A DNA stretch of 53,408 bases from the NCBI GenBank assembly GCA_023249675.1, contig JAHFCE010000022.1:1-53408 (forward strand), written 5' to 3'. A program made the translations under genes and the position numbers. The notes under the pieces are model-generated. The model saw only the letters and a program-made list of their open reading frames with translations. It was not told the DNA's origin and searched no databases. Within the stretch, counting starts at the first letter, position 1, and each line of letters starts with the position of its first letter. Positions 1,802 through 22,040 of this stretch are shown here, one piece after another. This stretch comes from Elusimicrobiota bacterium (lineage in GTDB: Bacteria > Elusimicrobiota > Elusimicrobia > UBA1565 > UBA9628).

Positions 1802-1838
1802 GTCGATCCTCCTCCTCTTTCGCCTAGTCTAGCAGAAG

Positions 1839-1866
1839 ATTATGAGCGATTTTCACGGAAAGTCAA
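1839..1866 (-). promoter_or_regulatory. Promoter of NarL-type regulator
   Basis: On the minus strand a TTGACT box (1866-1861) and a CATAAT box (1844-1839) are separated by 16 bases, upstream of an SD-containing leader. The -35 box overlaps the stop codon region of the preceding kinase gene, so the regulator and DUF2332 gene may be transcribed both from this site and by read-through. Confidence 0.45.
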
Positions 1867-2966
1867 GCCTCGCCTAAGGGCTTGACGGGCACGGTAAACA
1901 AAAAAGCCGAGCCCTTCCCCAGGCCGTCGCTTTCGACCCAGAGGCGCCCGCCGTGGCTGTCAACGATCTCGCGCGAAATCGAGAGGCCCAAACCGAGACG
2001 CCCCCCGCCCGAGGCGCTCTCCCCTTGATAAAAACTTTGGAACAGCTTGCCCACTTCCTCGGGCGCGATTCCATCGCCCGTGTCGCGCACGCAAAAGCGC
2101 ACGGCCTTCGCGTCCCGCTCGGCCGCCACCATAACCGTGCCGCCCTTGGGCGTGTGGCGAATGGCGTTCTCCAGGAGGTTGTTGAGCACCTGCGACAGGC
2201 GCTTCTTGTCGGCCGCGAGTGTGGGCAGGCCGGGCTCGAGCACGGTCTTGAGGGTCAGCCCGCGCGCCGCCGCGCGGGCCTGCGGCCCCACCACGGTCTC
2301 CTCAACGAGCGAGCCGGCGTCGAAGAGGTTCGTCTCGAGACGGAATTTCCCCTGCTCGATCGAGGCCCAGTCCACGAGGTCTTCGATGAGGCGCGAGATC
2401 TGAGCGATGCCGCCGGCGATGTAGCGCATCTTCTTGAGCTGCTCGGCGTCGGGCTTGAGCGAAGCGCTCAGCATCTCGAAACTGACCTGCAACGTCATCA
2501 GCGAATTGGAGAGGTCATGGGAAGCCATCGACATGAATTTTGACTTCATCGCCGACAGGCGCTGGTTCTTCTCATTGGCGTTCTTGAGATCCTGCTTGAG
2601 CCTCATCTTTTCGAGCGACTTGGCGATCGCGCGCTTGAGGTGGTCGAAATTGACGGGCTTGGTGAGAAAATCGTCGACGGATTCCTGGATCGCCTTAAGC
2701 GCCGTGTCGAGCGAGGCATGGGCCGTGACCATCAGGATCTGGCTCTCGGAGTTGAGCGCGCGGATCTGCTGGATGGCGTCGATGCCGGTGCCGTCGGTCA
2801 GGTTGTAGTCCATCAAGATGACGTCGAACGGCGTCTTCTTGACCTGGGCGACCGCCTCCGCCGCGCTCGCGGCCGAGGCGGTTTCATAGCCCTCGACTTC
2901 CAAGTTGTCGCCAACACTCTCCCGCATGTTCGCGTCGTCGTCGACGATCAGTATCTTTCCTTTCAT
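1863..2966 (-). CDS. Receiver-histidine kinase hybrid
   Basis: This is a 367-residue cytoplasmic protein with an N-terminal receiver fused to a kinase core. The receiver (about 3-120) has D9-D11, phospho-acceptor D53 (VILMDYNL), T81 and K103 (FLTKP). A short coiled linker (about 120-140) leads to a HisKA domain with H150 in MASHDLSNSL, then a HATPase_c domain (about 245-362) with N-box NLLENAIRHT, DTGDGI and GLGLSI. There is no membrane segment, so it is likely driven by phosphotransfer from another kinase, such as the adjacent Cache-HAMP kinase 12 bases upstream. The order REC-HisKA-HATPase is typical of relay proteins that take input through the receiver. The substrate is probably one of the neighbouring regulators (inference). 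Confidence 0.93.
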   Translation of the reverse strand: MKGKILIVDDDANMRESVGDNLEVEGYETASAASAAEAVAQVKKTPFDVILMDYNLTDGTGIDAIQQIRALNSESQILMVTAHASLDTALKAIQESVDDFLTKPVNFDHLKRAIAKSLEKMRLKQDLKNANEKNQRLSAMKSKFMSMASHDLSNSLMTLQVSFEMLSASLKPDAEQLKKMRYIAGGIAQISRLIEDLVDWASIEQGKFRLETNLFDAGSLVEETVVGPQARAAARGLTLKTVLEPGLPTLAADKKRLSQVLNNLLENAIRHTPKGGTVMVAAERDAKAVRFCVRDTGDGIAPEEVGKLFQSFYQGESASGGGRLGLGLSISREIVDSHGGRLWVESDGLGKGSAFLFTVPVKPLGEA

Positions 2967-2978
2967 ATCATAACCGCC

Positions 2979-4862
2979 TCATGACGCCGTCGTCGGGATG
3001 TAGAGCTTGAACGTCGTGCCCGCGCCCACGGCACTCTCCACGTCCACCTTGCCTCGGTGGCGATCGACCACCTTGCGCACGACGGCCAGGCCCAGACCCG
3101 TGCCGCGCGCTTTGGTCGTGAAGAACGGCGCGAAAATTTTGTCGAGCACGTCGGGCGCGATCCCGCTTCCGGCGTCGGCGATATCGACGCGCACCCAGCC
3201 GGCCTCGGGGATCACGGTGCGGATCGTGATCTTGCCCCCCTTGGGCGCGGGCATCACCTCGATGCCGTTGCCCACGAGGTTGCGCACCGCCTGCTGCATC
3301 TCGGTCTTGTCGATGTCCACGACTGGATTGGCGGGATCAAAATGCTTGTCCACCGCGATGTGCGCCGGGAAGGGATAGACGGACAGAAGCTCCTCGAGCC
3401 AGTCGTTGACCTGAACGCGCTCGAGCTGCAGTTCGCGCTGACGCGAATAGGTGAGTATTTCGTTGATGATGCCGTTGGCCTGCTGAATCTCGGACTCGAT
3501 GATCTTAATGTGCTTGCTGATCTTGAAGTCCGGCTCGCCGGCGGTGCCGAGCTTGGTCTTGATGAAGTAGATCGAGTTGTTGATGACGGCAAGCGGATTG
3601 CGGATCTCATGGCCGACGACGGAGGCCATCTGGCCGATGGCGGCCAGGCGCTCTTTTTTGATGAGCTCGTCCTGGGCGGACTTGAGCTCGCGCGTGCGGG
3701 CATCGACGCGCTTCTCGAGGAACTTGGTGAATTTCTCGAGCTCCTGCTTCGCGTGGATGAGCTCGCCCGTCTTTTCCTTGAGCGACTCGCTCATGCCGAG
3801 GAAGGTCTGGGCCAGGTCGCCGATCTCGTCGTTGGTGGTCACGACCTCGGGCAGGTCTTCGAACTGCCCCTTGCCCAGGCGATCGGCGGCCTCCTTCAGG
3901 ATGCGAATGGGTTGGGTGATGTGGCCGGCGACGGCAAGCGACAATAGGACGGTGAAGAGAACGACCCAAATCAGCACCCTCAAAATTTGGGCCTTCATGT
4001 CGGCCGCGGTCTGATAAGCGGCTTCGACCGGCTGCTGGACGTAGACGATCCAGTCGAGCTTGTCGATGAGGCTGAAAGCGCCCAGCAGGCGCTTGCCGCC
4101 CCCGATCGCGATCTCGCCGCCACCCTTGACGTTGTCCTGGGACGTGAGCACCTTCTCGACTTCCGGGGGCATGCGCGCGTCGGGACGGTAGATCTCGCGC
4201 GGGTCGGAGTGCGCGATCAGAAAGCCATCTCGCGTCATCACAGCGGCCTGGCTCTTGCCCGAAGCCGGGAACTCCATCGCAAGCATGGTCGACAGACCAT
4301 TCAGGCTCACGCGCGCGGCGATCGCACCGACGGCCTTTGCGGGCTGCACGCGGCTGTCCATGATCGGCACGGAGAGGGTGACGGTCGGATACAGTCCCTG
4401 GAAGCGCTCGAGCCGCCCGACGAATTGGCCGCGCGGCCCCATCGCGCCGGTGAAGACCTCCTCCCCCCGAAAATCGCGCATCTCGGGGTTGGGGCCGAGG
4501 AAGCGACCGATGCGCAGGGCCTCCACGCCCTTGTCGTTGAGCACCGACAGCTCCAGAACCGCGAAATGGATCTGCAGGATGCGGTTGAGATACTGCTGCT
4601 GCTTGCCGGGGTTCATCGAGACGAAGTCCTCAAGGCCCGCGGTTTCCGTCAGCACGTTGCGGAAGGTCGTGACGTACTTGTAGGTCGTATCCGCGAAACC
4701 GACCGCCAAGGATTCCTGCATCGCCAGCGTCTCCTTGCGCAGCGACTGCTGCGTGATGCCGACCAGGTGCCAGCCGACGAAGATCATGGGTGCCAACGAA
4801 ATCAGCAGGAACCAGAAGAGGATCTTATAGGCAAGCTTGCCGCGGTTCCTGATGGAGGCCAT
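2979..4862 (-). CDS. Cache-HAMP sensor histidine kinase
   Basis: This is a 627-residue inner-membrane sensor kinase. TM1 is at about 11-36; a periplasmic dCache-like region at about 40-290 includes the typical segment ending in [11 protein letters not shown]2 is at about 293-315, and HAMP at about 315-368 (ITQPIRIL). A coiled coil (about 365-405) precedes HisKA with H418 in [13 protein letters not shown]. HATPase_c follows, with an N-box-like segment ([13 protein letters not shown]), ADAGSGI and GTGLGLAVV. It presumably binds a small ligand outside and passes phosphate to a neighbouring receiver. It lies between a stand-alone receiver gene and the REC-HK hybrid, all on one strand. No strong Shine-Dalgarno precedes the ATG. 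Confidence 0.93.
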
Positions 4863-4930: not shown

Positions 4931-5320
4931 TTATCCTTTCGCGGCGTTCCGCGAAAGGAGCTGCTTGATGCGGGCTGAAAGCTCCGCGAGGTCGAAAGGC
5001 TTGGTGATGTATTCGTCGGCCCCGAGCTCGAAGCCCTGCTTTTTCTCCTCCGACGAGAGAAAGCGGCCGGTCATCATGATCAGGATCGTGATCTTGGAGC
5101 GCTTGCGCAGTTCCTGGCAGATCTGGAAGCCGGAGGAGTCCGGAAGCTGAATGTCCATAATAACGGCATCGGGCTCAATTTTTGCGGCGGCCGCGAGGCC
5201 TTCCTTCGCCGCGCCGGCCTGGTGGCACTCGAAGCCATCGAGCTCGAGAACCTCGGCGAGGCTCTCGCGCAGGTGCGCGTCGTCGTCGATGATGAGCAGT
5301 TTGGGGGATTTTGCCGCCAT
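4931..5320 (-). CDS. Stand-alone receiver protein
   Basis: This is a 129-residue single-domain response regulator (CheY-like in architecture). Acidic residues D12-D14, phospho-acceptor D56 (VIMDIQLP) and the lysine of YITKPFD are all present, so it should be phosphorylatable. The reading frame is open further upstream, but the start at 5320 is fixed by a GGAGGT ribosome binding site directly before the ATG and by the upstream gene's stop codon at 5322-5324. There is no output domain. It probably acts by protein contact or as a relay between the kinase 68 bases downstream and the degenerate regulator just upstream (inference). Confidence 0.9.
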   Translation of the reverse strand: MAAKSPKLLIIDDDAHLRESLAEVLELDGFECHQAGAAKEGLAAAAKIEPDAVIMDIQLPDSSGFQICQELRKRSKITILIMMTGRFLSSEEKKQGFELGADEYITKPFDLAELSARIKQLLSRNAAKG

Positions 5321-5321
5321 A

Positions 5322-6119
5322 TTACCTCCGCATCTCCGCGCCGGGCGGCACGAGCTTGTAGCCGACGCAGGGGATGGTCGTGATGTACTTCGCCGCGACG
5401 CCGAGCTTCTCGCGAAGCCGGCGCACATGCACGTCCACGGTGCGGGGCGAGCCGAAATAGTTGTAGCCCCAGACGCGCTCGATCAGGTACGGACGCGAGA
5501 GCACGCGATTGGCCGAGCTCAGGAAGACGTAGAGCAGGTCGAGCTCCTTCGAGGTCAGCGGAACGCGCTTTTTCGATATGTGCAAAGTGTAGCTCGTGAG
5601 ATTGAGCTCGATCTCCCCCATGTTGATGATTTCCTCGGAGGCGTTGACCTGGGTGCGGCGCAGCACCGCCTTGATGCGGGCTAGGCATTCGGCCGCGTCC
5701 CAGTTGAGCGAGAGGCACTCGTCCGCGCCCGCCTGGAAGAACGCCAGGCGCAGCGACACCTTATCCTTGACCGAAGGTTGATTCGGCGCCGACGCCGGTC
5801 CGGAGCGGCCGAACAGGGCGTACGCGTGCTTGGACGGGGCCGCGGAGGCCGCCGGCTGGTCGGCGTGCTCAACGAGAGCGACGATCGGCATCTGGCGGGC
5901 CGGACCTTTGGCGCGCAGCGACTTCACGAGGTCGACTCCGTCCTCATCGACGAGTTTTTGGCCGAGGATCAGAAGATCGCAGCCGCGATGCGCCAGCAGA
6001 CCTGAAACCTCCTTGGCCTTCTGGGCGACGGTGACGGTCATTCCGGCAGCCTGAAGAGCCTCGAGGATGACGGCCGCGCGGTTGGGTTCGCGCGAGCCGT
6101 AGACGACGCTGGTTCTCAC
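5322..6119 (-). CDS. Atypical OmpR-type regulator, degenerate receiver
   Basis: This is a 265-residue transcription factor. The C-terminal part (about 162-259) is a clear OmpR/PhoB winged helix (LTSKELDLLYVFL, YLIERVWGY, RTVDVHVRRLREKL, VGYKL). The N-terminal domain has receiver-like secondary structure but lacks the phosphorylation site: the acidic pair is replaced by YGS at residues 7-9, the aspartate position is G53 (LLILGQKL), and the conserved lysine-proline is replaced by L138-N139. A proline/serine-rich insertion of about 30 residues (about 88-120) interrupts it. The GTG start at 6119 overlaps the upstream TGA as GTGA. It likely works without phosphorylation, perhaps by binding a partner such as the receiver encoded 1 base downstream. 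Confidence 0.88.
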   Translation of the reverse strand: MRTSVVYGSREPNRAAVILEALQAAGMTVTVAQKAKEVSGLLAHRGCDLLILGQKLVDEDGVDLVKSLRAKGPARQMPIVALVEHADQPAASAAPSKHAYALFGRSGPASAPNQPSVKDKVSLRLAFFQAGADECLSLNWDAAECLARIKAVLRRTQVNASEEIINMGEIELNLTSYTLHISKKRVPLTSKELDLLYVFLSSANRVLSRPYLIERVWGYNYFGSPRTVDVHVRRLREKLGVAAKYITTIPCVGYKLVPPGAEMRR

Positions 6120-6544
6120 TGCCCGGCGCCGCCCTCGTCCTCGAGTTCGAGGCTGAGGCCGCCGAGCGAACTGATCGCGGCGAAGAAGTTGTAGACGACG
6201 GCAAGCAGGAGCAGCGCGCCCTCGGTCAGCACCGCGTAGAACACGGTGTAGAAGCCGACCGACAGGGCCTTCTGCATCCCGGACAGCGCGGCGTTCGAGG
6301 AGTTCGGAGAGATCACGAACGTCACCAGGCCGCCGAGGAAGCCGAGCAGCATCACGGTGCCGGTGATCGCCGGACGCGTCGAGAGGAGAATGGCGACGGC
6401 CGCGATCAGCACGCCGACGATGGCGATGGGCGGTTTGCTCGCGTAGCCCGCGCCGAGCGCCAGCGCCGCGCCGAGGAAAACGGCGATCGGGAGGATGGGG
6501 TGCTTGAACCAATACGGATCGATTCTCTTCACGCGATAGCTCAT
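6116..6544 (-). CDS. Four-helix membrane protein, unknown function
   Basis: This is a 142-residue integral membrane protein with about four hydrophobic segments (roughly residues 20-35, 38-55, 62-82 and 95-125) and an acidic C-terminal tail. I do not recognise a family. The start at 6544 is chosen over an upstream in-frame codon because AAGGAGA lies six bases before it. Its stop overlaps the start of the atypical regulator (GTGA), so the two are translationally coupled. A membrane protein paired with a phosphorylation-independent regulator may be a sensor or anti-regulator, but this is speculation. Confidence 0.8.
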   Translation of the reverse strand: MSYRVKRIDPYWFKHPILPIAVFLGAALALGAGYASKPPIAIVGVLIAAVAILLSTRPAITGTVMLLGFLGGLVTFVISPNSSNAALSGMQKALSVGFYTVFYAVLTEGALLLLAVVYNFFAAISSLGGLSLELEDEGGAGQ

Positions 6545-9057: not shown

Positions 9058-10404
9058 CTATTGCCCCGCGCCGTACAGCTTCTCGATTCTCTCGAGTCCG
9101 GCGATCGCGTCGGAGTTGCCCGGGTCAAGCTGCTTGGCGTGCAGCCACTTGTCGCGAGCCTTCTCGTAGTCGCCCTTCTGGTAGTAGATGACGCCCTCGA
9201 GGTAAGCCTGCTGGGAGGCCTGCTTGTTGCTCTCCGCATTCTGCGCCGGCGGCGGCGCCGTCTGGCCCGCCGGAGGTTGAGTTTGCCCCGCCGCAGCCGC
9301 CCGGGCCTTCTCTTCCTCTTCTTTTTTCTTGGCCTCGGCCGCGGCCGCGGCCTCGTCCGCCTTCTGTTTCTTAAGATCTTCCTCACGCGCCCTGGCGGCC
9401 TCGACCGAGCGCTTCTTGGCGGCCTCCTCGCGGCGCATCTGCTCCTTGGCGCGGGCGACAAGCTGGTCGGCGGCCTTCGGATCGTAGCCGTACTCGACGG
9501 CGTGCCTCCACTCCGTGATCGCTTTGTCGTACTGGCGCGACTCGTAGTCGCGGCGGCCCTCGGCGACGTGCTGGTTGGCGACCTCAGCGCGGATCTCGGC
9601 CTGCAGCTTCTGCGCCTTCACGTTGCCGGGGCCCGACTCGAGCACCGCATCAAGCATCTTCAGCGACTCCAGAACCAGGCCCTGGCTGTACAGGTTCAGC
9701 GCGGCCTGAAGCTTCTCGTTGGCGTCCTGCTCGCGCGACTCGGCCTCGACTTTCGCCAGCTCCGCTGTCAGGCGCGGATAGCGGGGATTGAGCACGAGCG
9801 CTGCGTACCACTGGTCAAGCGTCTCGCGCAGCCGATGCTGGCGATAGGCCTGCCGCCCTTTCCGGTAGTGCTCCTCGGCCAGCTCAACACGGGCCTTGCG
9901 GAGCCAATAATGAGACTTGAGATTGGTCGGGGCCAGCTTCGAGCACTCCTCCCAGCGCTGGGCCGCCTCCACGAGACGGCCCTGGCGATACAGGGCCATG
10001 CCCTCCTCGAAACGCTCCTCGATGAGACGCCGCTCCGAGGCGCGGGGCTTCGTCGAGCCCTTCAGGTCGATCGTCGCGCGGTTGAGGATCGAGGCGTCCG
10101 CGTAGCCGGGATCGATGGAGAGAATCTTGCGCGTCAGGTCATTGGCCGCCTCGTACTGGCCGTGCTTGTAGAGATCGAAGGCGTTCTCGTAGACGTTCTT
10201 CAACGTCTTCCTCGTGAGCCGCGACTTCTCGAGCTCGATCGTGTAGATATACTTCTTCTTGTCATCATCGGATGAAATCGTGCCGAGGTTGAGCTTCGAC
10301 ATGTCGAGGAACAAGCCCTCGGTTTCGTGGACTTTGGCTTCGGCGGCGCGCACGGGCCCCGCGGCGAACACGAGCCAGGCGGCAAGGAGTTCTGGACGGA
10401 TCAA
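9058..10404 (-). CDS. TPR-repeat exported protein of Tad operon
   Basis: This is a 448-residue protein with a short N-terminal hydrophobic export signal (about 1-20, ending VRAAEA). Several tetratricopeptide repeats follow: ENAFDLYKHGQYEAA, EGMALYRQGRLVEAAQRW, GRQAYRQHRLRETLDQW, EGRRDYESRQYDKAITEW and a final EGVIYYQKGDYEKARDKW near 410-430. A lysine/glutamate/alanine-rich helical stretch (about 325-370) and a proline/glutamine-rich linker separate the last repeat. It sits where TadD, a TPR pilotin-like protein, would be expected. The start is TTG at 10404, overlapping the TadC stop as TTGA. It may help assemble the secretin or the pilus base (inference from position). Confidence 0.82.
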   Translation of the reverse strand: MIRPELLAAWLVFAAGPVRAAEAKVHETEGLFLDMSKLNLGTISSDDDKKKYIYTIELEKSRLTRKTLKNVYENAFDLYKHGQYEAANDLTRKILSIDPGYADASILNRATIDLKGSTKPRASERRLIEERFEEGMALYRQGRLVEAAQRWEECSKLAPTNLKSHYWLRKARVELAEEHYRKGRQAYRQHRLRETLDQWYAALVLNPRYPRLTAELAKVEAESREQDANEKLQAALNLYSQGLVLESLKMLDAVLESGPGNVKAQKLQAEIRAEVANQHVAEGRRDYESRQYDKAITEWRHAVEYGYDPKAADQLVARAKEQMRREEAAKKRSVEAARAREEDLKKQKADEAAAAAEAKKKEEEEKARAAAAGQTQPPAGQTAPPPAQNAESNKQASQQAYLEGVIYYQKGDYEKARDKWLHAKQLDPGNSDAIAGLERIEKLYGAGQ

Positions 10405-11309
10405 AAGCCCAGGCCTCCCTGGACGAGACTCTTCATCATGGGTGCGAGCATCATGATGAACACCGTCGGGAAGATGAAAATGAACAGGGGTATGAGCATT
10501 TTTGTGGCCGCCTGAGCCGCCAGCTTCTCCGCCTTGTTGAGCCGGCGAAAGCGCATGTCCGCGGCATAGTTGCGCAGCAGCTCCACGAGGCTCGTGCCGA
10601 GCTCATCGGACTGGATGATGAGGCCGACGAAGGAGCGGATTTCGGGAACGCTGGTGCGCATGGCAAGGCGTTTGAGGGCATCGCGGCGCGTGTAGCCGAG
10701 CGAGACCTCGTTGACCATCTTCTGCAGCTCGTTCTCAAGCTCGGTGCGTTGGGCCTGCTTGACGTTCTTGAGGATGCGCTCGATGGCCGCCATATAGTCA
10801 AGACCGGCCTCGATGGTCAACGCCATCAGGTCGACCATGGTCGGAAAGTTGCGCATGATGTCGGCCTGGCGGGCCCGGATCTTGCCCTGGAACAACGAGT
10901 CCGGAATAAAGAAGCCGATCGCGCCGAGCGCGGCCAAGAGCGGCTCCTCGGTCGTGACGTAGATGACCACGACAAGGCCCGCGGCAAGAATCTCTTTGAG
11001 GTGCAGCATCTCAAGGGGCGTGGGCTTCATCGGGCGGCCCATCATCATGTGCAGCTCCTCGAGCTTGACGTCGAGGTGGAAGGTCTTGAGCAGGAACAGG
11101 TCGAGCTTGTCGATCAGGCTGCCGTGCGGGTTCAGGCTCGAGAACGCAGAACTCGTGCCGACCTCTTTTTTGGCCAGCCGCGACAGGTCGCTCTCATCGG
11201 CGTCGGCGGGCGGCGCGAACAGGCGGCCGGCCGCCGTGTACGCGGCGACGGAGCCCAGCACTCCGACCGCGAGCAGAAGATAGTGCATCGGGGGATCGAT
11301 GGGAGCCAT
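10401..11309 (-). CDS. tadC: Tad pilus platform protein TadC
   Basis: This is a 302-residue inner-membrane protein of the type II secretion F (T2SSF) family. An N-terminal TM (about 9-27) is followed by a cytoplasmic region, two TMs around 108-140, a T2SSF helical bundle (MRNFPTMVDLMALTIEAGLD, then RSFVGLIIQSDELGTSL) and a C-terminal TM (about 270-290). TadC partners with TadB to form the platform above the TadA ATPase. Its length is typical. It starts one base after the tadB stop and its own stop overlaps the TTG of the TPR gene. Confidence 0.93.
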   Translation of the reverse strand: MAPIDPPMHYLLLAVGVLGSVAAYTAAGRLFAPPADADESDLSRLAKKEVGTSSAFSSLNPHGSLIDKLDLFLLKTFHLDVKLEELHMMMGRPMKPTPLEMLHLKEILAAGLVVVIYVTTEEPLLAALGAIGFFIPDSLFQGKIRARQADIMRNFPTMVDLMALTIEAGLDYMAAIERILKNVKQAQRTELENELQKMVNEVSLGYTRRDALKRLAMRTSVPEIRSFVGLIIQSDELGTSLVELLRNYAADMRFRRLNKAEKLAAQAATKMLIPLFIFIFPTVFIMMLAPMMKSLVQGGLGF

Positions 11310-11310
11310 A

Positions 11311-12852
11311 TCAGACGCTGATGTCTCCGAGCTTGTTGACGATCTTCATGCCGATGCCGATCCAGATGGTGCAGAAGAGGAGCGTGGCGACGCCGATGCC
11401 GCTGAAGTAGTACTCCTTCATCGGACCGGGCTGGAAGACGAACATGATGACGAGCATGATCCAGGGCATGACGCCGACGACGATCGCCTGGATGCGCTGC
11501 TGGGCCGTCATCGCTGCGGTCTTTTCGGCCAGCTTCGACTCCTCGCGGATGTTGTCGACGATGCGGTCAAAAATCTTGGTCAGGTTGCCGCCGACGGAGC
11601 GCTGGATGACGACGGCCTTGATCATGTAGGAGAGCAGGCGGCTCTGCACGCGCTCCTCCACGCCCTCGAGCGCCAGCTCAAGGGCGGTGCCGAGCTGATA
11701 ATTCTTGATGCAGAGGCCGAACTCCTCGGAGATCGGCGGCAGGCAGTCGCGCTGAACCATCTCGAGGCAGCCGATCAAGTCGACGCCCGACTTGAGGCCG
11801 TTCGACATCAGGATCATCGCGTCCATGAGCTGCGCCTCGCACTTCATGCCGCGGCGAAAGCGGATGTTGCGCAGAAGCCAGCTCGGCAAGGTCAGGCCGG
11901 CGTAGACGCCGAAGCCCGCGCAAATGATGAATCCGAAGGGATCGAACGTGAGCAGGCCCAGGAGCAGGCCGAGCGCAATGGGTCCGCCGACGAGGTAGTG
12001 GATTTTGATGACGATGAACTGGCGCTCGTATTCATGGGCCCACTCCTTGGCCTTCGCCTTGTAGCGCTCCCAGCCGTCCCCGATTTTTTTCTCATTGAGC
12101 GAGCCGATGGTCCAGGCGCAGATGATGATGAGGCCCACGCCGATCATCTTGAACGCGACCGACGCCGCCTGCGAGCCCTTGTCGTCGCCCTGCTGAAACT
12201 TGAACCCGCGCGGCGTCGACTGCAGCGCCTCAAACGCCCCGTTCATCAAAGCGCCCATCGCCATGACGGCGTCCTTGTAGCGCTGCGTGTCGCCATTCAC
12301 GAGGCCGTCCATGACGCTGTCGTACTGCTTGTTGATGAGCTCGAAGTGCGCGATCACCGCGCGTCCGCGCCCGCCGAGCGAATCGCCGAGCTTCGCGCGC
12401 ACGAGGCGGTCGAGCGACATTTGGAAGCGGATGCGCTTGTCCTCGTAATCCTTGATCAGGCTGCCGGGCGGCATCAATTGGCCGCCGTCGGAGGGCGGCA
12501 GGCTCTTGCGGACCAGCTCGAAGAACTCGTAGAGAACGGAGGCCGGCGCCTGCCAGAGCTGCGCCTCATTCAGAATTCCCTCATCAGGATCCTGCCAAAC
12601 CGGGCGCTTGAGCATCGCCTCGAGGGTCTGGTCCACCCATTTCGGAACCTTGAGGCTCGCGTCGCGGTCCCGCTTGAAATAGTGATAGAAGACCTGAGTG
12701 CGCGTGATCGCACCCTCGACCTTCGCCTGGCCGGGCGCCGCCGACTTGCCGGAGCCGACGAGAAATACGATCTCCTCACGGCTGAAAATCTGGGCCCTGG
12801 ACGGGACCGCGGCAAGCAAAAGAAGAAGCAGCGGGAGCAGGCGTTGAGGCAT
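11311..12852 (-). CDS. tadB: Tad platform protein TadB with long exported N-terminus
   Basis: This is a 513-residue protein. The C-terminal half is a normal TadB: TM (about 233-252), paired TMs (about 285-325), T2SSF bundle (GMKCEAQLMDAMILMSNGLKSG) and C-terminal TMs. It differs from usual TadB proteins of about 300 residues by an N-terminal signal peptide (1-20, ending PSRA) and a soluble region of about 210 residues (21-232), presumably periplasmic. That region has no recognised domain. The start at 12852 is chosen because a classic signal peptide begins there and the ATG follows the upstream TAG by one base; codons further upstream lie inside the upstream gene. Confidence 0.9.
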   Translation of the reverse strand: MPQRLLPLLLLLLAAVPSRAQIFSREEIVFLVGSGKSAAPGQAKVEGAITRTQVFYHYFKRDRDASLKVPKWVDQTLEAMLKRPVWQDPDEGILNEAQLWQAPASVLYEFFELVRKSLPPSDGGQLMPPGSLIKDYEDKRIRFQMSLDRLVRAKLGDSLGGRGRAVIAHFELINKQYDSVMDGLVNGDTQRYKDAVMAMGALMNGAFEALQSTPRGFKFQQGDDKGSQAASVAFKMIGVGLIIICAWTIGSLNEKKIGDGWERYKAKAKEWAHEYERQFIVIKIHYLVGGPIALGLLLGLLTFDPFGFIICAGFGVYAGLTLPSWLLRNIRFRRGMKCEAQLMDAMILMSNGLKSGVDLIGCLEMVQRDCLPPISEEFGLCIKNYQLGTALELALEGVEERVQSRLLSYMIKAVVIQRSVGGNLTKIFDRIVDNIREESKLAEKTAAMTAQQRIQAIVVGVMPWIMLVIMFVFQPGPMKEYYFSGIGVATLLFCTIWIGIGMKIVNKLGDISV

Positions 12853-12853
12853 T

Positions 12854-15187
12854 CTAATGCCCCCCTTGGACATGCGTCGCGACGGCCTCGGCGTCGTCCG
12901 GCACCGAGATGCCCGCCTTGAGCAATTCATCGATGGCGTTGGGCAAACCCTTCTTCTTCTTGGTGCGCTCGCTCCAGAACGCTTCCGGCGAGACCGGCAG
13001 GCCCTTGAGCTTGATCTCATCGTAGCAGTGCGGGACATAGTCCATGGCCGTGAAGTAGCCGAAGCTCACGCCCTTTTCGTCCATGCCGGTTTGGATGAAG
13101 CGGTAGATGTCCTTGGTCAGGACTCTCTGGCCGTCGCGTCCCGTGCACTCCGAGATGTAGGTCACGCGGCGCTTGCCGTCGGCGAAGCGCGTAATCTGGA
13201 TGAAAAGGTGCACCGCGCTTGAGATCATATCGATGAGCACGTTCATGGGAAGTTCGACGCCCGACATCAGGCACATCGCGGAAAGACGGCTGATCGATTC
13301 GGTCGGAGTATTCGCATGCAAGGTCGCCAGGGAGCCTTCATGGCCGGTGTTCATGGCCTGGAGCATGTCGAGCGACTCTCCGCCGCGGCACTCGCCGACG
13401 ACGATGCGGTCGGGACGCATGCGCAGGCAGTTCTTGATCAGGTCGCGGATCGTGATCTCGCCCTTGCCCTCGATGTTCGGCGGGCGCGACTCGAGACGGA
13501 TCCAGTGCTCGGCCAACAGGCGCAGTTCGGCCGTATCCTCCACGGTAATGATGCGCTCGCCTTCGGGAATAAAGTTCGAGAGCATGTTCAGGAAAGTTGT
13601 TTTCCCGGTGCCGGTGCCGCCGGCGATCAGCATGTTCTTCTTGACGATGACCGCAGCGCGCAGGAACTCGATGAAGGTCTCGGTGCAGGCGCCAAAACCA
13701 ATCAACTGCTTGGAGGTGAAGGGCTTCGCCGAGAAGCGGCGGATCGTGAGCGTGGGCCCGGAGACGGCCAGGGGCGCTATGATCGCGTTCACGCGCGAGC
13801 CGTCCTTCAAGCGGGCGTCGACGAGCGGGACGGACTCGTCGATGCGGCGGCCGACGGGCGCGACGATGCGCTTGATGACCTGCACGACCTGCTCATCGTT
13901 GCGAAATCGCAGCGGCAGCAGCACGAGCTGGCCTTTCTGCTCGATGTAAATCTTGTCGAACGCGTTGACCATGATCTCGTTGATGCTGGGGTCGCGCAGC
14001 AGGGACTGCAGCGGGCCGAGACCGAGAATCTCATCGACGAGCTCGCCGGTGAACTGCTCACGCTGGGCGCGCGAGAGCGCTAGGCTTTGCTCGCGCTGAA
14101 GCAGATTCTCGATGATCTGGGAAACCTTCGCGCGGTTCTCCTCATTCTGGTTGGGATCATCGGAGATGCGGATGCGCTCGGTCTCCATCGCGCCGACGAC
14201 GAGCTTGTGCATCTTGCCCTTGAGTTCGTCCCAGAACTCGGGCACCGGGCCGACGGACTTCGTGGGGTCCTTCGGCGCGGTTTTGGGCGCCTCGGACGCC
14301 GATGAAGCGGCCGACGGCTTCCACAGGATGTCGGCCGATGCGGAAAACTCGTCGGCGTCCATGGACGACTCCCAGTGCTTGACGGAGGGTTTGATCTCCA
14401 TCAGGCGGCCGAGCAGGACGCGCAGGGATTTGACCCAATCACTCTGGAGCTGCTCAACGACGAGAATCTTCCGGGTGTTCGCGTACTCGGGGATCAAGTC
14501 CTCCCACGGGCAGTAGGCGAGCACGCGCTTTTGGATCGCGTTGAAGAAGCGGTCGACCTCCTTGGGCGCCAACGCCCCGGGGAGGTTGGCTTGGTTGACG
14601 ACGATCTCGAACTTGTCGAGCGCGAAATGCAGGGCCTTGACCTCGTTGAACAGCGCGTAGGTCGCCTCGAAGTGCGAGCGCTGAGGAAGGCAGACCCAGT
14701 AGATCAGATCGGCCAAATCAAATGAGAAAATCTGCATCGGAAAGAATGGGTCGACGTCGAGAAACAGATCATACGATTCGGCCAGAGAGCCGAGAACCTT
14801 GACGACCATGTTCGGCGACAATTTCTGGAATTCGGCGCGATTGGCGGCGAGCGGCAGGAGCCCCACGCCCCACTGCGAAATTGGAATGCGGCCCTTGAGC
14901 AGGCGGCCGAGGCCGCCCGTCGGGTTCTCACCGACAAGCGAGGCCATGCTGGCCAAAGTCGGAGGACTCACGCCGAGCATATAGCTCAAGTCGTTGCGGC
15001 ACATGGGATCCATGTGCACGATGACAACCTTGCGGTTCTGGCTTCCGGCCCAAGCGAGGGCCAAATTGAGGCAGGTCGTGGTTTTGCCGACCCCTTCCTT
15101 GGGGCCGGTGAAAACGACGACGCGCCCCGGCTCCTTGGGAGAGGCCGAGGCAACGCTCGCCGTCTCGGGGCGAGGGGGGTCAGCCAT
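12854..15187 (-). CDS. TadZ-TadA fusion: ParA-like plus CpaF-type ATPase
   Basis: This is a 777-residue cytoplasmic protein combining two Tad ATPases. Residues about 20-270 are a ParA/MinD-like domain as in TadZ/CpaE, with Walker A GPKEGVGKTT at 28-37 and HMDP near 58-61. A linker rich in serine, proline and alanine (about 290-315) follows. Residues about 320-740 are a TadA/CpaF secretion ATPase: Walker A GGTGTGKTT at 523-531, ITVEDTAEL at 547-555, Walker B region RPDRIVVGECRGGE at 591-604 and the histidine box ATLHANTPTES. In most Tad loci these are separate proteins, TadZ placing the machine and TadA powering pilus extension. There is no stop or frameshift between the halves. Confidence 0.93.
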   Translation of the reverse strand: MADPPRPETASVASASPKEPGRVVVFTGPKEGVGKTTTCLNLALAWAGSQNRKVVIVHMDPMCRNDLSYMLGVSPPTLASMASLVGENPTGGLGRLLKGRIPISQWGVGLLPLAANRAEFQKLSPNMVVKVLGSLAESYDLFLDVDPFFPMQIFSFDLADLIYWVCLPQRSHFEATYALFNEVKALHFALDKFEIVVNQANLPGALAPKEVDRFFNAIQKRVLAYCPWEDLIPEYANTRKILVVEQLQSDWVKSLRVLLGRLMEIKPSVKHWESSMDADEFSASADILWKPSAASSASEAPKTAPKDPTKSVGPVPEFWDELKGKMHKLVVGAMETERIRISDDPNQNEENRAKVSQIIENLLQREQSLALSRAQREQFTGELVDEILGLGPLQSLLRDPSINEIMVNAFDKIYIEQKGQLVLLPLRFRNDEQVVQVIKRIVAPVGRRIDESVPLVDARLKDGSRVNAIIAPLAVSGPTLTIRRFSAKPFTSKQLIGFGACTETFIEFLRAAVIVKKNMLIAGGTGTGKTTFLNMLSNFIPEGERIITVEDTAELRLLAEHWIRLESRPPNIEGKGEITIRDLIKNCLRMRPDRIVVGECRGGESLDMLQAMNTGHEGSLATLHANTPTESISRLSAMCLMSGVELPMNVLIDMISSAVHLFIQITRFADGKRRVTYISECTGRDGQRVLTKDIYRFIQTGMDEKGVSFGYFTAMDYVPHCYDEIKLKGLPVSPEAFWSERTKKKKGLPNAIDELLKAGISVPDDAEAVATHVQGGH

Positions 15188-15196
15188 GGTCGTTCC

Positions 15197-15940
15197 TCAT
15201 TTGACGATCTCCATAGTGATGAAGAGGAAGAGCGACTTCTGCTCCTCGACGATGCTGGTCTGCGTGAAGAGCAGGCCGAGAATCGGGATGCTGCCAAGAA
15301 ACGGAACCTTGGTCTTGGAGATGTTCTTGGCGCTGGACTTCAGTCCGCCGATGACGAGGGTCTCGCCGCTCTTGATTTCGACGGCCGTTTGGATTTGGCG
15401 CGTCACGATGGAGGGCACGGTGGTGTTGCCGACCGAAACCGTCTTCGAGTAGTCGACGTTGGAGACCTCAAGCTGCAGCTCGGCGCGAATCGTGTCCTTC
15501 TTGTTCGGGTTGACGACGGGCACGATGTTGAGGATCACGCCGAACTTCTTGAAATCCGCGGTCACCGTTCCATTGCCGTTGGCCGAAGGGTAGGGAATCT
15601 CGCCGCCGACCACGAAATTGGCCTGCGACTGGGCTTGAACCACCACTTTGGGGTTTGACAGAAGCTGGGCCTTGCCTTCGGTTTCGAGCATTTTGAGCTG
15701 GGTCTGGAGCTGTGTTTGACGAGCGAAATCGCCGACCCGGTAGATGCCCGGCATCGTCTTCTCGGCGAAGCCGATCCCGGCTGCGAACGGAGTCCACGCA
15801 AAACCGATGTCGCGCTGTACGGACCCGGAAATCTCGACGATATCCGCGGAAACGGCGATCAGCGAGTCCTCCGGCTGGGCCGAAGCCCGGGCCGCAAGCG
15901 CGCAGACGAGTGCTGTCGCCGTCCACAGTTGTCGATTCAT
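15197..15940 (-). CDS. Minimal Tad secretin (RcpA/CpaC-like)
   Basis: This is a 247-residue exported protein with a signal peptide (about 1-21). Nearly all of the mature part is the secretin C-domain: LLSNPKVVVQAQSQANFVVGGEIPYP, GVILNIVPVV, and the signature VPFLGSIPILGLLF followed by LFLFITMEIV at the C-terminus. Usual Tad secretins carry N-terminal N-domains and exceed 400 residues; here only about 40 residues separate the signal peptide from the pore domain. It should form the outer-membrane channel for the pilus. Contact with the inner-membrane machine would need another protein, perhaps CpaB, the TadB extension or the TPR protein (inference). Confidence 0.9.
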   Translation of the reverse strand: MNRQLWTATALVCALAARASAQPEDSLIAVSADIVEISGSVQRDIGFAWTPFAAGIGFAEKTMPGIYRVGDFARQTQLQTQLKMLETEGKAQLLSNPKVVVQAQSQANFVVGGEIPYPSANGNGTVTADFKKFGVILNIVPVVNPNKKDTIRAELQLEVSNVDYSKTVSVGNTTVPSIVTRQIQTAVEIKSGETLVIGGLKSSAKNISKTKVPFLGSIPILGLLFTQTSIVEEQKSLFLFITMEIVK

Positions 15941-15972: not shown

Positions 15973-16728
15973 CTAGCGGAAAAGCTTGCGGAAACTGGCC
16001 ATCTCCATGGGATGCATCTCGGCGTCGCCAAGACCGCGCATGATGACGGTCGTGTCGCCCTGCTTGATGGCCAAAGCCAGATACTGCGATTCGTTGGGGT
16101 TGAGAGCGAGGCTGACGGAGGCCTTTTCGGAGAACGCAGCCGACTTGTCTTCCTTGTCCCCTAGATTCTTGAACTGCTTCGCATTCATTCCCTGTCCGAG
16201 GTTGGTGCCGACCGCGATGACGAGCACGTTCTGCAGGATCGTCGCGGTGACCTTCTCCTTGCGGCCGTCATTCATGAGGGCGTCGAAGGTGACGAGCACG
16301 TCCACGCGGTCGCCGGGCTTGATCAGGATCTTCATTTCTTGTTCGATCGGCAGGATGGCGCCGCGGTAGCCCGGCGGGATCTTGACGCTCAGGCCGGATT
16401 CGGGCGAGAGGGAGATCAGCGAGGATTGCGTGAGCTGGTTGCCTTTCGGCACGCGATTGCGCGTCACCAGGTTGACGATGAGCTTCATGTCGCCCTGCGT
16501 CTTGATCTCAAAGGAGTCCTGCTGCATGAATTTGCGCGGGACCTCGAGGACCTCGACCATGTCCTCCTTGAGGACCGTGCGCTCCGGAATGTCGACGCGA
16601 GCGGCGAGAACCTTGGCGGTCTCGTAAGCGCCGCGCAGTGCACTCTCCTTGCTGCTGAGCACCATTAAATAGAACACGGCGGCGCCCATCGCCAGGAGCA
16701 TCGGGACCAGCACGCCTTTCTTTTCCAT
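15973..16728 (-). CDS. cpaB: Flp pilus assembly protein CpaB/RcpC
   Basis: This is a 251-residue protein with one N-terminal TM (about 6-24) and a periplasmic SAF-type domain (VLAARVDIPERTVLKEDMVEV at about 40-60, then SPESGLSVKIPPGYRGAILPI). This is the standard CpaB architecture; the protein is thought to stabilise the secretin and bind peptidoglycan. The ATG follows AGGAA, part of which is the tadE stop codon (TAGGAAACAACCATG). It sits between tadE and the secretin gene. Confidence 0.92.
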   Translation of the reverse strand: MEKKGVLVPMLLAMGAAVFYLMVLSSKESALRGAYETAKVLAARVDIPERTVLKEDMVEVLEVPRKFMQQDSFEIKTQGDMKLIVNLVTRNRVPKGNQLTQSSLISLSPESGLSVKIPPGYRGAILPIEQEMKILIKPGDRVDVLVTFDALMNDGRKEKVTATILQNVLVIAVGTNLGQGMNAKQFKNLGDKEDKSAAFSEKASVSLALNPNESQYLALAIKQGDTTVIMRGLGDAEMHPMEMASFRKLFR

Positions 16729-16737
16729 GGTTGTTTC

Positions 16738-17163
16738 CTATTTCGTGAGCGGCGACTCGATCGGCATGCGAACGACGGCCTCGATGAGCCGCATGCCCGT
16801 GCCCTTCGGCTTGGCGAGGATCACATTGCTGATCGGGAAGATGAGCTTGATGTTGTTGCTTCCGGTGATGACGAGGTCGTAATTTTGCTGACCGGACTGC
16901 GGGTCCATCAACGTCGGGTCCATCTTGCAGTCGACCTTCGCCGATAAAATGATCTGTTTCATAAATTCGTTGAGCTTGCCGCAGCCATGTCCCGGCGGCG
17001 ACGTCGTCGTCATGCCGCCGATGCGAGCCACTTCATACGTCGCGTGATTGAGAAGGATCAACTGGAACGAAACGTACCCGATCTCCATGATCGTAAAGAT
17101 AATCGTCAGAAAGACCGGCAGGATCAGCAGCATCTCGACGACGACCTGACCGCCCTTTTTCAC
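16738..17163 (-). CDS. tadE: TadE-like pseudopilin
   Basis: This is a 141-residue minor pilin. The N-terminus has a prepilin-peptidase type motif, GGQVVVEM with glycine 5 before Q6 and glutamate at +5, followed by a TM (about 11-35). The rest is periplasmic and includes two cysteines (about 61 and 79). TadE proteins are processed by the Tad prepilin peptidase and act in pilus assembly. The start is GTG at 17163, with a strong GGAGGAGG immediately upstream. No tadF or tadG, and no TadV/CpaA peptidase gene, is found in this window. Confidence 0.88.
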   Translation of the reverse strand: MKKGGQVVVEMLLILPVFLTIIFTIMEIGYVSFQLILLNHATYEVARIGGMTTTSPPGHGCGKLNEFMKQIILSAKVDCKMDPTLMDPQSGQQNYDLVITGSNNIKLIFPISNVILAKPKGTGMRLIEAVVRMPIESPLTK

Positions 17164-17718: not shown

Positions 17719-18684
17719 TTAAAACTTCAACTTGACGGAGATCTGATCGACCGTGCCGAGCGCGCCGTAAGGAACGAAGGCGTAGTCCAGAGAGACGCCG
17801 TAGCCGAAAGCCTGGGACGTATACATGCCAAAGCCGAAGGACAGGTTGCTGGCGCGGTCCAGACGCAGGGACTTCAGGGTCTCGTCGTAGCTCTGACCGA
17901 GGCTGTCGCCGTTGCGATAGCCGACGCGAAAGGCGAGCTGGCCGACGTCCAAGTATTCCTCGGGGAGCTGGAACTCGCCGCCCACCGCGACATGCGCGCT
18001 GCTGTCCGAGGCTTTGCTCAGTTCAAGGCCCACGGTGATGAAATCGCCAAGCCGCACGCCGACGCCGCCGCGGCTGACCCGCGCGACGTTGCCCGCGCCC
18101 GAGCCGAAATTCTGGAGCGCCGCGCCCAGCGACAAAGTCGAATTCGGCTTTATGATCACGCCGACGTCGCCGACCATGGTGTCTTTGACCAAGCCGGCGA
18201 TATCCTCATGCACGACGCGCAGGGAGCTGCCGAGAAAGAGCTTTTCATACCAGAAGGAGCGGGCGATGCCTATCGACATCAGGCCATCGCGCACGCCGAC
18301 CTCGCTGTTGGGCTGGGGCACGCCGTTGGCGTCGCGGACATCGAAGCCGCTGACGCTGATGTAAGAGAGGTTCGTGCCCCAAGTCGTGCGGCCCATCGGG
18401 TGCGCGTAGGCGAGATAAAGCGGCGAGTCCACGTCCTGGACGTAGCGCAGATACGAGAAGCCCAACTCGCGCTGCTGGGTCACGGCGAGGCCGGCCGGAT
18501 TCCAAGCCAACGCGTCGGAACCCTCCGCGAGTGCGACATACGCGCCGCCCAAGGACATCGCGCGGGCAGAGCCCTGGCCGATTTTCATGAAGTTGGCGCC
18601 GCCGACGCCGGCGTTCGAGGCGGCGGCGCGCGCCCAGCCCGCCGCAAGGATGCTCAGCAAGAAGGCGAGGAGGAACTTGCTCAC
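17719..18684 (-). CDS. PorV/PorQ-family outer-membrane protein
   Basis: This is a 321-residue exported beta-barrel. A signal peptide (about 1-21) is followed by the typical family N-terminus: GVGGANFMKIGQGSARAMSLGGAY and then GSDALAWNPAGLA. Alternating beta strands continue to a C-terminal phenylalanine (VKLKF), the usual barrel signature. In Bacteroidota, PorV is the type IX secretion shuttle protein; PorV/PorQ relatives occur more widely. The GTG start overlaps the stop of the large FlgD-repeat protein (GTGA), so the two are coupled and probably act together. Whether it moves that protein to the surface is an inference. Confidence 0.88.
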   Translation of the reverse strand: MSKFLLAFLLSILAAGWARAAASNAGVGGANFMKIGQGSARAMSLGGAYVALAEGSDALAWNPAGLAVTQQRELGFSYLRYVQDVDSPLYLAYAHPMGRTTWGTNLSYISVSGFDVRDANGVPQPNSEVGVRDGLMSIGIARSFWYEKLFLGSSLRVVHEDIAGLVKDTMVGDVGVIIKPNSTLSLGAALQNFGSGAGNVARVSRGGVGVRLGDFITVGLELSKASDSSAHVAVGGEFQLPEEYLDVGQLAFRVGYRNGDSLGQSYDETLKSLRLDRASNLSFGFGMYTSQAFGYGVSLDYAFVPYGALGTVDQISVKLKF

Positions 18685-21600
18685 TGGATCAGCACCTTTT
18701 TGACCGTCTGGAGGATGTTCTTGCCGCCCTCCGTCTCCTCGACCCGGATCACCGCGAAATAGAGGCCGCGAACGACCTTATTGCCGGCCTGATTGACCTT
18801 GGTCCAGACGAAGGTCACCGGACCGGCCTGAAAGGCGGGCGGAACCTCGCCGAAATTCTTGTCCAGGACGAGCTCTCCGGACATGGTGTGGAGCTTCATC
18901 TTCACTTTCGCGCGGAAAGGCGGGAAGATCTGGAACGTCGTGGAATCACCGGTGACCGGGTTGGGATAGTTGAAGGTATTGTTGATGAAGTCCTCTCGCG
19001 GCGACAGCGACGCATTGCGCACCAGCGGAATATCATCGATCAAGCGGTCAAGCGAAAGCGCCCCGGCATTGAGGACGTTGCCGGTATTGTCGTCGATCGC
19101 CGCCATGTCGGTCGAGCCCACGATCTTGAACTTGTAGGAGCCGTCCTTGAGGAGAGAGAACATGAAATCCGTGCCGTCCCAGACCTCGTTGATCTGCGTG
19201 CGGGCCGGGCGCACGCCGACGAAGCGCTTGACCAACGACTGGGCCTCAGGCGGCGTGGGATTGCCGGAGGTATCGAAGATCGTGCCCGACTTGTAGATTT
19301 TGACGGCAACCTTCATGGTCTCCGACACCTGGTAGGACAAGACCGCGGGGCCGGAGTCACCACGCAAGGGCGTGATCGCGAGGTCGAAGATGCGCAGCGG
19401 ATCAAAGGCGATGGTCAGCTGCGAGGTCGCGCCGGAGGACATCACCGAGGCGACGTCCTCGGCCACCGCGCGCACCAAATAGAAGCCGGACGGAGGGAAG
19501 TTGCCTGCATTGTTGCGGCCGTCCCAAACATCGGTCTGAAGAAGCCCTGCCGGACGCACAGCACCGGTGATGATCGTACGCACGACCGCCGGAGGAATGC
19601 TCGTATTGGTGATCTGGATTGTCACCGACGACTGTCGAGTCAGCGCGTAGCTAATCGTAAACGGGTGCAAGGTGATCGTATTGCTCGAGTTGAAGAGCTG
19701 GGGCGTGTCGGGCAGAACGCTGAACTGCGTGAAAATGATCGAGCCGCGGGCCACGGTGACGCTGCCGAAGATCTTGTCCGTCGCGAAATACTTGGGCGTG
19801 GTCGTCGATTGGGCGGTCAACGTGTAGATATAGTTCCCATCCGGAACGAACAGCCCGTTCGCGTCGCGGCCGTCCCAGAACTCGGAGATTTTAAGTCGTC
19901 CGGGGCGTATGCCCCGGAAGGTCACGACGGGCACGGCCTGGGCGCCGGTGGGCGTCAGGACGGACGCGCTCGTGCAGGCCGCTGGCGGAGACTGCGTCGG
20001 GCAGGGAGGCCAGGCCGTCGCGCTGTTGACGATGACCGCGCCGGGCGCGTAGATGTTCCAGGCCACGAACATGGGCTGAGACAGCTGATAATTAAGAACG
20101 ACGTTCTCCGAGGCGCCAGACAGCAGCGGCGTGACGGCGACATCGGTCACCCGGAACATGTCGACTGGGAACATCGCGGTCGTCGTGGACACCTTCGAGG
20201 GTTGGGCCGGATCGCTGGCCGCCAACTGGACCAGATAAGTGCCCGAGGAAACCACATTGCCGGAGTCGTCGGTGCCGTCGGACCAGGTTTCGGAGTTCGC
20301 GAAGGCTCCGGGCCGAGTTTCGTTGTTAACCAAGGTCTTGACCAGGGCGCCGCCCGTCGAAGTGAAGATTTTCATCGACACGATCGCGTCGCGGGTCAGC
20401 GTATAGCGGAAGGTGAACGGATTGACGCCGGCCACCGCCGGACTCGAGCCGACCACGGTTGTGGTGGGAGAAATCTGAGTGATCCCCACAAGCCCGCGCA
20501 GGATCGGCAGGAAACCGATCTTGGCGGTGGTCGTCCACACGCGCTGATTGACGCCGCGCTGGGAAGGAAGGGCGGCGTAGATCACAAAGACATAGTCGCC
20601 GTCCTCAAGAAGGTTCCCCGCGGTGTCGCGGCCGTCCCAAAAACTGATCACCGAGGAGCGGGCTGTCTTGACCTCGACGATCGACTTGACGGCAGCCACG
20701 CCGACGCCGCCGATGGTGGCGACGAAGCTCTTCCCGCCGTTGGGGCCGGCGGGCGAACTCGTGACATCGTTGAGCGTCCCGTCGAACTGCGTGCCGGGCG
20801 GGTAGACATCGATATAAACCGTGGCCGCCTCGGTGAGCATATAGGACATCACCGCCAGCGAGGTCGCGCCGCCCATCAGGGGCTGGACGCGGATATCGGT
20901 GACCTGCAGGGGATCGAGCACCACCTGTCGCGTGGTCGCCTCGGAAAGGTCGCCGCCGCCGAGGGTGTACTGGTCGATGTTGTTGGCCTGGAACACCGCG
21001 AGGTAGCTGCCGGCCGGCAGGATGTTGCCCTTGTCGTCGCGGCCGTCCCAGGAGTCGCCGTTGAGCACGGTGCCCTGGGGCAGTCCTTCACCGGTCCTGG
21101 GAAGGGCGGACACCACACTTCGCACCTGATTAAAAGGCGGCGACGCGCTGTTGATCGTAAGGTACATCGTCGCGTCCTTCGACAGGCGGTACGTGAAGTT
21201 ATAAGGCTGGGCCGCGACGCCCGTGATCTGACCGATGACGGTCGGCGAGGAACGGACGACGTGGATATTCGTCACATCCACGGTGATCGGCTTCTGGGAA
21301 ACCGCGAGGTTGTTGGCGTTGAGCGTAGCCCCGGAGGGATAGGCGCGCGTCGCCGTGATCTGGATGTTGCCGCTGGTACCGACCTGGTTCGTCTTGACCG
21401 TGACGCGAAAGCCGTATTGGCCATTCGTCTTGCCGAACTCGCCCTGAATGTTGGCCGAACCGTCCCACAGCACGCAAGTACCGTTGGCGGCGTTGTTGGG
21501 GATAGTCGACGAAATGTCCCCGCCGGCGAAGCCGGGAGCGTCGATGAAAAATGTGCGCAACGGTGGCGTCGAGGCTGGGTCGAGCGGGTTCGAGCCATCC

Positions 21601-22040
21601 TGGAACTTAAACAGCTCGAAGCTGATCTCGTCAACAGCGACTCTGCCTGCCACGCCTGCATCGGTGTTGGCCACGCCGATCTGGGTGCAGAGGAACACGC
21701 GATCGTTGCAGAAGTTGTGGCCGACCGTTCCGCTCGAGAGGTTGACGCCGCTTATGTTCGCTGTCGAGGCCAGCGGGTTCACGTTACAGCGCCCCGTACC
21801 ATTCGCCTCAAACTCGATGTGCGGGTCGTTGGAGATATTGCCCTGGGCTGGAGCGCTTGAGAGCGGGGCAAGGAAGGCGATCGGGGGACCGACAACGAAA
21901 GTGACCGAGGAGGGACTGGCGACGTAGGCGGTGTTGACGAATACCTGCACCGATCCCAACGCCGCGGCCCGCAACGGGAGCAAAGCGGCGGCGAGAAAGG
22001 CCGCGCGCGTCAAGCTCGAGAGGCACCGATGTCTGGTCAT
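18681..22040 (-). CDS. Large exported protein with FlgD Ig-like repeats and sorting-type C-terminus
   Basis: This is a 1119-residue protein with a signal peptide (about 1-28). The first 260 residues are a beta-rich, cysteine-containing region. Six FlgD-type Ig-like repeats follow, each marked by a W-DG-D/N motif then G-x-Y: W331, W468, W586, W722, W839 and W954. The last 95 residues begin NYPNP (1024-1028), continue KMKLHTMSGELV, and end GLYFAVIRV plus VKKVLIQ, which resembles a type IX secretion type A sorting domain. It is therefore likely a secreted or surface-bound structural protein. The coupled downstream gene encodes a PorV-like barrel, which fits. Ligand and function are unknown. Confidence 0.87.
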   Translation of the reverse strand: MTRHRCLSSLTRAAFLAAALLPLRAAALGSVQVFVNTAYVASPSSVTFVVGPPIAFLAPLSSAPAQGNISNDPHIEFEANGTGRCNVNPLASTANISGVNLSSGTVGHNFCNDRVFLCTQIGVANTDAGVAGRVAVDEISFELFKFQDGSNPLDPASTPPLRTFFIDAPGFAGGDISSTIPNNAANGTCVLWDGSANIQGEFGKTNGQYGFRVTVKTNQVGTSGNIQITATRAYPSGATLNANNLAVSQKPITVDVTNIHVVRSSPTVIGQITGVAAQPYNFTYRLSKDATMYLTINSASPPFNQVRSVVSALPRTGEGLPQGTVLNGDSWDGRDDKGNILPAGSYLAVFQANNIDQYTLGGGDLSEATTRQVVLDPLQVTDIRVQPLMGGATSLAVMSYMLTEAATVYIDVYPPGTQFDGTLNDVTSSPAGPNGGKSFVATIGGVGVAAVKSIVEVKTARSSVISFWDGRDTAGNLLEDGDYVFVIYAALPSQRGVNQRVWTTTAKIGFLPILRGLVGITQISPTTTVVGSSPAVAGVNPFTFRYTLTRDAIVSMKIFTSTGGALVKTLVNNETRPGAFANSETWSDGTDDSGNVVSSGTYLVQLAASDPAQPSKVSTTTAMFPVDMFRVTDVAVTPLLSGASENVVLNYQLSQPMFVAWNIYAPGAVIVNSATAWPPCPTQSPPAACTSASVLTPTGAQAVPVVTFRGIRPGRLKISEFWDGRDANGLFVPDGNYIYTLTAQSTTTPKYFATDKIFGSVTVARGSIIFTQFSVLPDTPQLFNSSNTITLHPFTISYALTRQSSVTIQITNTSIPPAVVRTIITGAVRPAGLLQTDVWDGRNNAGNFPPSGFYLVRAVAEDVASVMSSGATSQLTIAFDPLRIFDLAITPLRGDSGPAVLSYQVSETMKVAVKIYKSGTIFDTSGNPTPPEAQSLVKRFVGVRPARTQINEVWDGTDFMFSLLKDGSYKFKIVGSTDMAAIDDNTGNVLNAGALSLDRLIDDIPLVRNASLSPREDFINNTFNYPNPVTGDSTTFQIFPPFRAKVKMKLHTMSGELVLDKNFGEVPPAFQAGPVTFVWTKVNQAGNKVVRGLYFAVIRVEETEGGKNILQTVKKVLIQ

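Follow-up and report, generated by a model that had tools for sequence, protein, structure and literature searches.

The presence of two ATPase domains in a single open frame of a tad operon raises the question of whether a TadZ-like ParA-type ATPase and a TadA/CpaF pilus motor truly constitute one protein, and what their joining could mean for the motor. In the stretch of DNA analysed here (53,408 nucleotides in full, hereafter the window), which comes from a member of the little-studied phylum Elusimicrobiota, the fused gene belongs to a one-strand run of tad genes that also encodes a TadE-like protein, RcpC/CpaB, a short secretin, two T2SSF platform proteins (TadB/TadC-like) and a TPR protein. 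Its members with assigned coordinates are as follows.

16738..17163 (-), TadE-like pseudopilin, by domain match
15973..16728 (-), RcpC/CpaB, by Pfam/NCBIfam matches
15197..15940 (-), short secretin (RcpA/CpaC-like) of 247 aa, by Pfam/NCBIfam matches
12854..15187 (-), tadZ-tadA fused gene of 777 aa, by its single frame, domain matches in both halves and the same frame in relatives
11311..12852 (-), TadB-like platform protein with a long N-terminal extension, starting 1 base past the fused-gene stop
10401..11309 (-), TadC-like platform protein, by domain match

Several features of the neighbouring genes were also observed. The secretin leaves little room for the usual N0/N1 domains, and Myxococcus KilC has likewise been described as short and without N0 (PMC8460266). 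The TadB-like protein has a signal-peptide-like start and approximately 220 extra residues ahead of its first platform membrane segment. Genes for a PorV-family protein and a 1119-aa FlgD-Ig repeat protein lie directly upstream of the tad genes, at 17719-22040 (-), and two response-regulator genes with overlapping frames are located downstream in the tad strand run, at 4931-6512 (-).

The first-pass annotation had described the two ATPases as one continuous 777-residue chain without giving its strand. The frame, a single one of 777 codons, runs on the minus strand from the ATG at 15187 to the TAG at 12856-12854, and the plus strand of this interval contains stops. The start is credible because the secretin gene ends at 15197, a ribosome-binding-like GAGGA overlaps the secretin stop, and the ATG follows 9 bases on. 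Pfam detected CbiA (3e-9) on the ParA half and T2SSE (8e-62) on the motor half, and the chain was divided into the following parts, in which residues are numbered on the full protein with the first Met counted.

14390..15130 (-), ParA/MinD-like (TadZ-type) ATPase domain without REC, residues ~20-266, by sequence, profile and fold matches
15077..15106 (-), deviant Walker A GPKEGVGKTT, residues 28-37, by motif search
14396..14440 (-), predicted amphipathic helix closing the ParA domain, DWVKSLRVLLGRLME, residues 250-264, a possible membrane or interface helix in the predicted structure
14237..14389 (-), variable linker of ~50 residues, residues ~267-317, with a core of pLDDT < 50 at ~291-311, from AlphaFold2 and dN/dS
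12965..14236 (-), TadA/CpaF motor with three-helix bundle, NTD and ATPase domain, residues ~318-741, by profile, sequence and fold matches
13595..13621 (-), motor Walker A GGTGTGKTT, residues 523-531, by motif search

Elsewhere the two ATPases are usually encoded by neighbouring genes, and a sequencing or assembly error that removed a stop between these genes could have produced such a frame. However, the chain was found in one open frame in dozens among the 58 relatives searched, at 49-94% identity. Counted by hand from the match table for an even draw of phylum genomes, a full-length single-frame match was present in 88 of the 95 class members and in 103 of all 199 genomes. In the other seven class members, the match was cut at a contig end once and was of motor size only twice, and four genomes had no strong match. 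As the frame is open without interruption in so many independent genomes, the missed stop or frameshift between the domains, over which the first-pass annotation had expressed concern, is excluded, and the probability of an assembly error is practically negligible. The dN/dS values were 0.03-0.15 for the ParA half, 0.05-0.26 for the TadA half and 0.21-0.67 for the linker; as judged from these sequence comparisons, purifying selection acts strongly on the ParA and TadA halves and weakly on the linker. We regard the architecture, a TadZ-like ATPase and a TadA/CpaF motor in one chain, as near certain, and the 1:1 covalent ratio pointed out earlier is right, both domains residing in one polypeptide. 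The only split copy seen (L151, minus-strand frame 1676-3100, in the single-contig assembly of genome G010) carries a frameshift where its linker is rich in glycine.

The motor half matched solved CpaF both in sequence (phmmer E 2e-106, residues 356-728) and in fold (Z 39.9, 4.7 Å, 420 residues). The motor motifs, namely GGTGTGKT at 523, the acidic ITVEDTAEL at 547, RIVVGECRGGE with the Walker B Glu at 594, and the His-box TLHANT at 622, were all identified, and the key residues were invariant across the fusions. The score against the NCBIfam TadA model TIGR03819 (310 bits) was under the curated cut-off of 373, which is a naming threshold rather than a biological feature, yet this was the best family and no other motor family passed its own cut-off. 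By sequence and fold this half is a TadA/CpaF motor ATPase, which would presumably act as a hexamer that drives pilus extension and retraction.

For the ParA half, an AlphaFold2 model of the whole chain (48-row alignment, mean pLDDT 83) showed a ParA-type fold at ~21-266 followed by TadA from ~318, and the domain predicted alone reached a mean pLDDT of 86. In the fold ranking, 3EA0, FleN, MinD and FlhG (Z 24.5-22.5) preceded the TadZ structure 3FKQ (Z 20.6), so that the model would point to a MinD/FleN-like ParA rather than to TadZ alone. Against a profile of unfused TadZ, on the other hand, the ParA half aligned over 244 columns (hhalign E 8e-58), and an unfused-TadZ HMM scored it at 79 bits, compared with 59.5 and 60.1 bits for the ParA and Mrp encoded in the same genome; by this margin of about 20 bits it appears modestly nearer to TadZ than to general ParA/MinD proteins. 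We therefore base its TadZ identity on the tad operon, on its position at the site of the separate tadZ of unfused relatives, and on the unfused-TadZ profile match. The usual form of the deviant Walker A motif is KGGxGK[ST], and the window protein, with KEGVGKT, has both P-loop lysines. CpaE is described as having a membrane helix; in the model of the fused chain, the closing helix could serve in the same manner, an interface role being equally possible.

While a ParA/MinD ATPase domain thus stands in the tad operon beside the motor, as expected of TadZ, the N-terminal REC domain of classical TadZ is absent. The distance from the preceding stop to the P-loop is 33 residues, and because the secretin stop, GAGGA and ATG adjoin, an upstream REC could not be accommodated. 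Accordingly, the N-terminal half is TadZ-like, consisting of the ATPase domain only, and is not a complete TadZ, so that the "polar-localising" label given to it in the first-pass annotation is weaker than it sounds. Across the loci retrieved, which were picked by similarity to the window protein, approximately 10-35 residues separated the P-loop of the fused proteins from the chosen start (55 in one of them), and in most of them 12-81 separated it from the preceding stop, whereas the ATPase match of unfused TadZ started at about residue 126-202, with exceptions at 79 (a frame cut by a contig edge) and 391 (a long GC-rich frame). Given this N-terminal room, a REC of 110-130 residues fits only the unfused proteins. 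The pattern in these sequences suggests that REC loss accompanies fusion, every fused TadZ retrieved lacking REC and the unfused ones having room for it.

In the unfused relatives (Bacillota, Actinomycetota, Chloroflexota, Planctomycetota and some Pseudomonadota), a separate TadZ lies just upstream of tadA. No second TadZ was found beside the fused loci retrieved, and the check for a separate tadZ in the genome suggested at the outset also gave none by the CbiA family, a search that a P-loop-less TadZ would escape; the other ParA-superfamily proteins found were a chromosomal ParA/Soj encoded next to ParB, a carrier of the Mrp type and a match of 546 aa that fell below threshold. Two unusual loci were noted in the same order. 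One (L150, 2611-3519 (-), genome G036) encodes a TadZ-like ParA paralogue that stands alone, lacks REC and neighbours a lexA-like gene; the fusion is present in this genome as well. The other (L149, 1399-4512 (-), genome G042) is a frame of 1037 aa in which two TadZ-like ParA domains in tandem precede a remnant like the TadA three-helix bundle; where the motor would be, it ends in a domain of the Ser/Thr protein kinase family (Pfam Pkinase 3e-38).

Both Walker A motifs had been reported as intact, which holds exactly, at 28-37 and 523-531, for the window protein but does not extend to the architecture as a whole, since sister lineages keep the fusion without the P-loop. In other lineages of the phylum, TadA chains of 620-720 aa have ParA-like N-terminal regions of about 250 residues in which the P-loop is damaged, as in KGGVGQT (L130), ETKEGLSRF (L129) and GAACSIPSA (L126), or missing, as in family f15 (21 loci), where it is fully lost. 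In single pairwise hhalign comparisons with the fused ParA profile, L130, L129 and L126 gave E 2e-44, 2e-28 and 1e-18, respectively, and the f15 profile gave E 8e-7 at a probability of 92%; L127 (f7), at E 6e-4 and 28%, is only suggestive of a ParA-like N-terminus. As the decay is graded and the ParA fold is retained, the fused domain outlives its nucleotide site.

The related-locus search also recovered single-frame ParA-TadA chains of about 700-770 aa in Omnitrophota (7 loci), Bdellovibrionota and one Myxococcota-assigned MAG, as well as single or few ParA-TadA chains in WOR-3 (Caldifarciminota), Eremiobacterota/Vulcanimicrobiota and further MAGs. In the TadA and ParA-domain trees, where FHA labels were mostly assigned from N-terminal length with Pfam confirmation at two loci only, the fused rows clustered strongly, and the resolved branches were compatible with one or repeated origin, long branches weakening the ParA tree.

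Considering these sequences and models together, we favour, with fair though not high confidence, the reading that the window chain is a Tad pilus motor in which TadZ is incorporated as a permanent collar; the coupling of placement to motor activity proposed in the first-pass annotation is something we infer. In such an arrangement, the TadA part would form the usual hexamer beneath the TadB/TadC platform, and the six ParA domains would hang at its N-terminal side as a collar. Neighbouring ParA domains could pair when ATP-bound, with no more than three dimers forming in each ring, and the collar could be anchored to the membrane by the amphipathic helix closing each domain. The tether would keep the collar always at the motor, the place where Caulobacter CpaE was modelled around and below CpaF, and would thereby make REC-mediated CpaE-CpaE contacts unnecessary.

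The ParA half may alternatively run an active ParA cycle that places the whole machine, for example at the pole, with the fusion serving placement. At least 90% of fused proteins retain the first P-loop lysine, switch Asp 60, Walker B Asp 144 and Asn198, the second P-loop lysine being missing in some cases, and the low dN/dS agrees with such a cycle; nevertheless, sister lineages keep the fused domain without a P-loop and REC is absent from the fused chain, and we consider this explanation rather unlikely. Still less probable is that proteolysis in the linker frees TadZ from TadA and the fusion merely yields equal amounts of them: the linker is indeed variable and predicted to be disordered, but even very distant relatives have both halves in one chain, the linker alignment shows no conserved cleavage site, and separate adjacent genes would serve equally.

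Returning to the built-in collar, its retention with a dead nucleotide site in sister lineages makes it more likely that the oldest shared job was structural than that it was an ATP-driven ParA cycle, and this job may have been recruiting, seating or steadying the motor. The intact P-loop under strong selection in the class of the window suggests that nucleotide-controlled pairing is still used there. A more tentative extension is that these proteins constitute a fourth CpaF class in which the TadZ ring is integral and ATP-dependent pairing acts on the symmetry states of the hexamer as a clutch or direction control, several lineages having later turned this ring into a pseudo-ATPase scaffold. 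For reference, CpaF is a C2-symmetric hexamer (PMC11300603).

The Caulobacter machine provides the only in-situ model: six CpaE dimers were fitted around and below the CpaF hexamer, touching the CpaF base when piliated, and are probably linked to one another via their REC domains, the CpaE assignment being a fit into a 4-5 nm map (PMC13170226). By comparison with this model, a REC-less 1:1 fusion cannot, from its own chains, build six REC-linked CpaE-type dimers per hexamer. With 6:6 fixed and no REC bridges, either 12:6 is not general or partners would come from neighbouring motors, and the fused proteins thus test how far REC contacts and a count of twelve CpaE per six CpaF can be generalised. 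For work on a reconstituted TadZ-motor complex they supply one polypeptide, and the natural P-loop-dead versions could help to tell structural roles from nucleotide-driven ones.

Among 292 CpaF orthologues, a survey published in 2025 distinguished three architectures, plain, with a disordered N-terminus, and with FHA (PMC12019362). The ParA-fused class is absent from this catalogue, and the open-access literature, to which the search was confined, yielded no description of it; "undescribed" holds for that literature only, because domain-architecture browsing would reveal such a fusion. The motor half resembles Caulobacter CpaF/TadA (PDB 8RJF, 8RKD, 9E24) over its full length, including the three-helix bundle and catalytic motifs, but where classes I-III have nothing, disorder or FHA at the N-terminus (PMC12019362), the window chain has a predicted folded ParA-type ATPase domain. 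TadZ/CpaE, represented by Eubacterium rectale TadZ (PDB 3FKQ), is likewise a tad-operon ParA-type ATPase, its unfused form being encoded directly upstream of tadA; it is, however, a separate protein with an N-terminal atypical REC, whereas the fused chain has no REC and is covalently joined to the motor. Among solved structures, the Chlorobium tepidum ParA-family ATPase 3EA0 is nearest to the ParA half in profile comparison (E 2e-43); it also ties for first by fold (Z 24.5, 2.4 Å, 235 residues), and its solved chain is without REC as well. The FHA-TadA fusions of class III, such as Myxococcus KilF, similarly carry a regulatory domain on the TadA N-terminus, but FHA binds phosphopeptides and is unrelated to ParA (PMC8460266). 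Finally, archaellum FlaH is a secondary ATPase accompanying a TadA-related motor, FlaI, and the gene positions of TadZ and FlaH match (PMC6668835); FlaH and FlaI are separate proteins, unlike the fused window chain, and the likeness lies in gene position and in the role of secondary ATPase.
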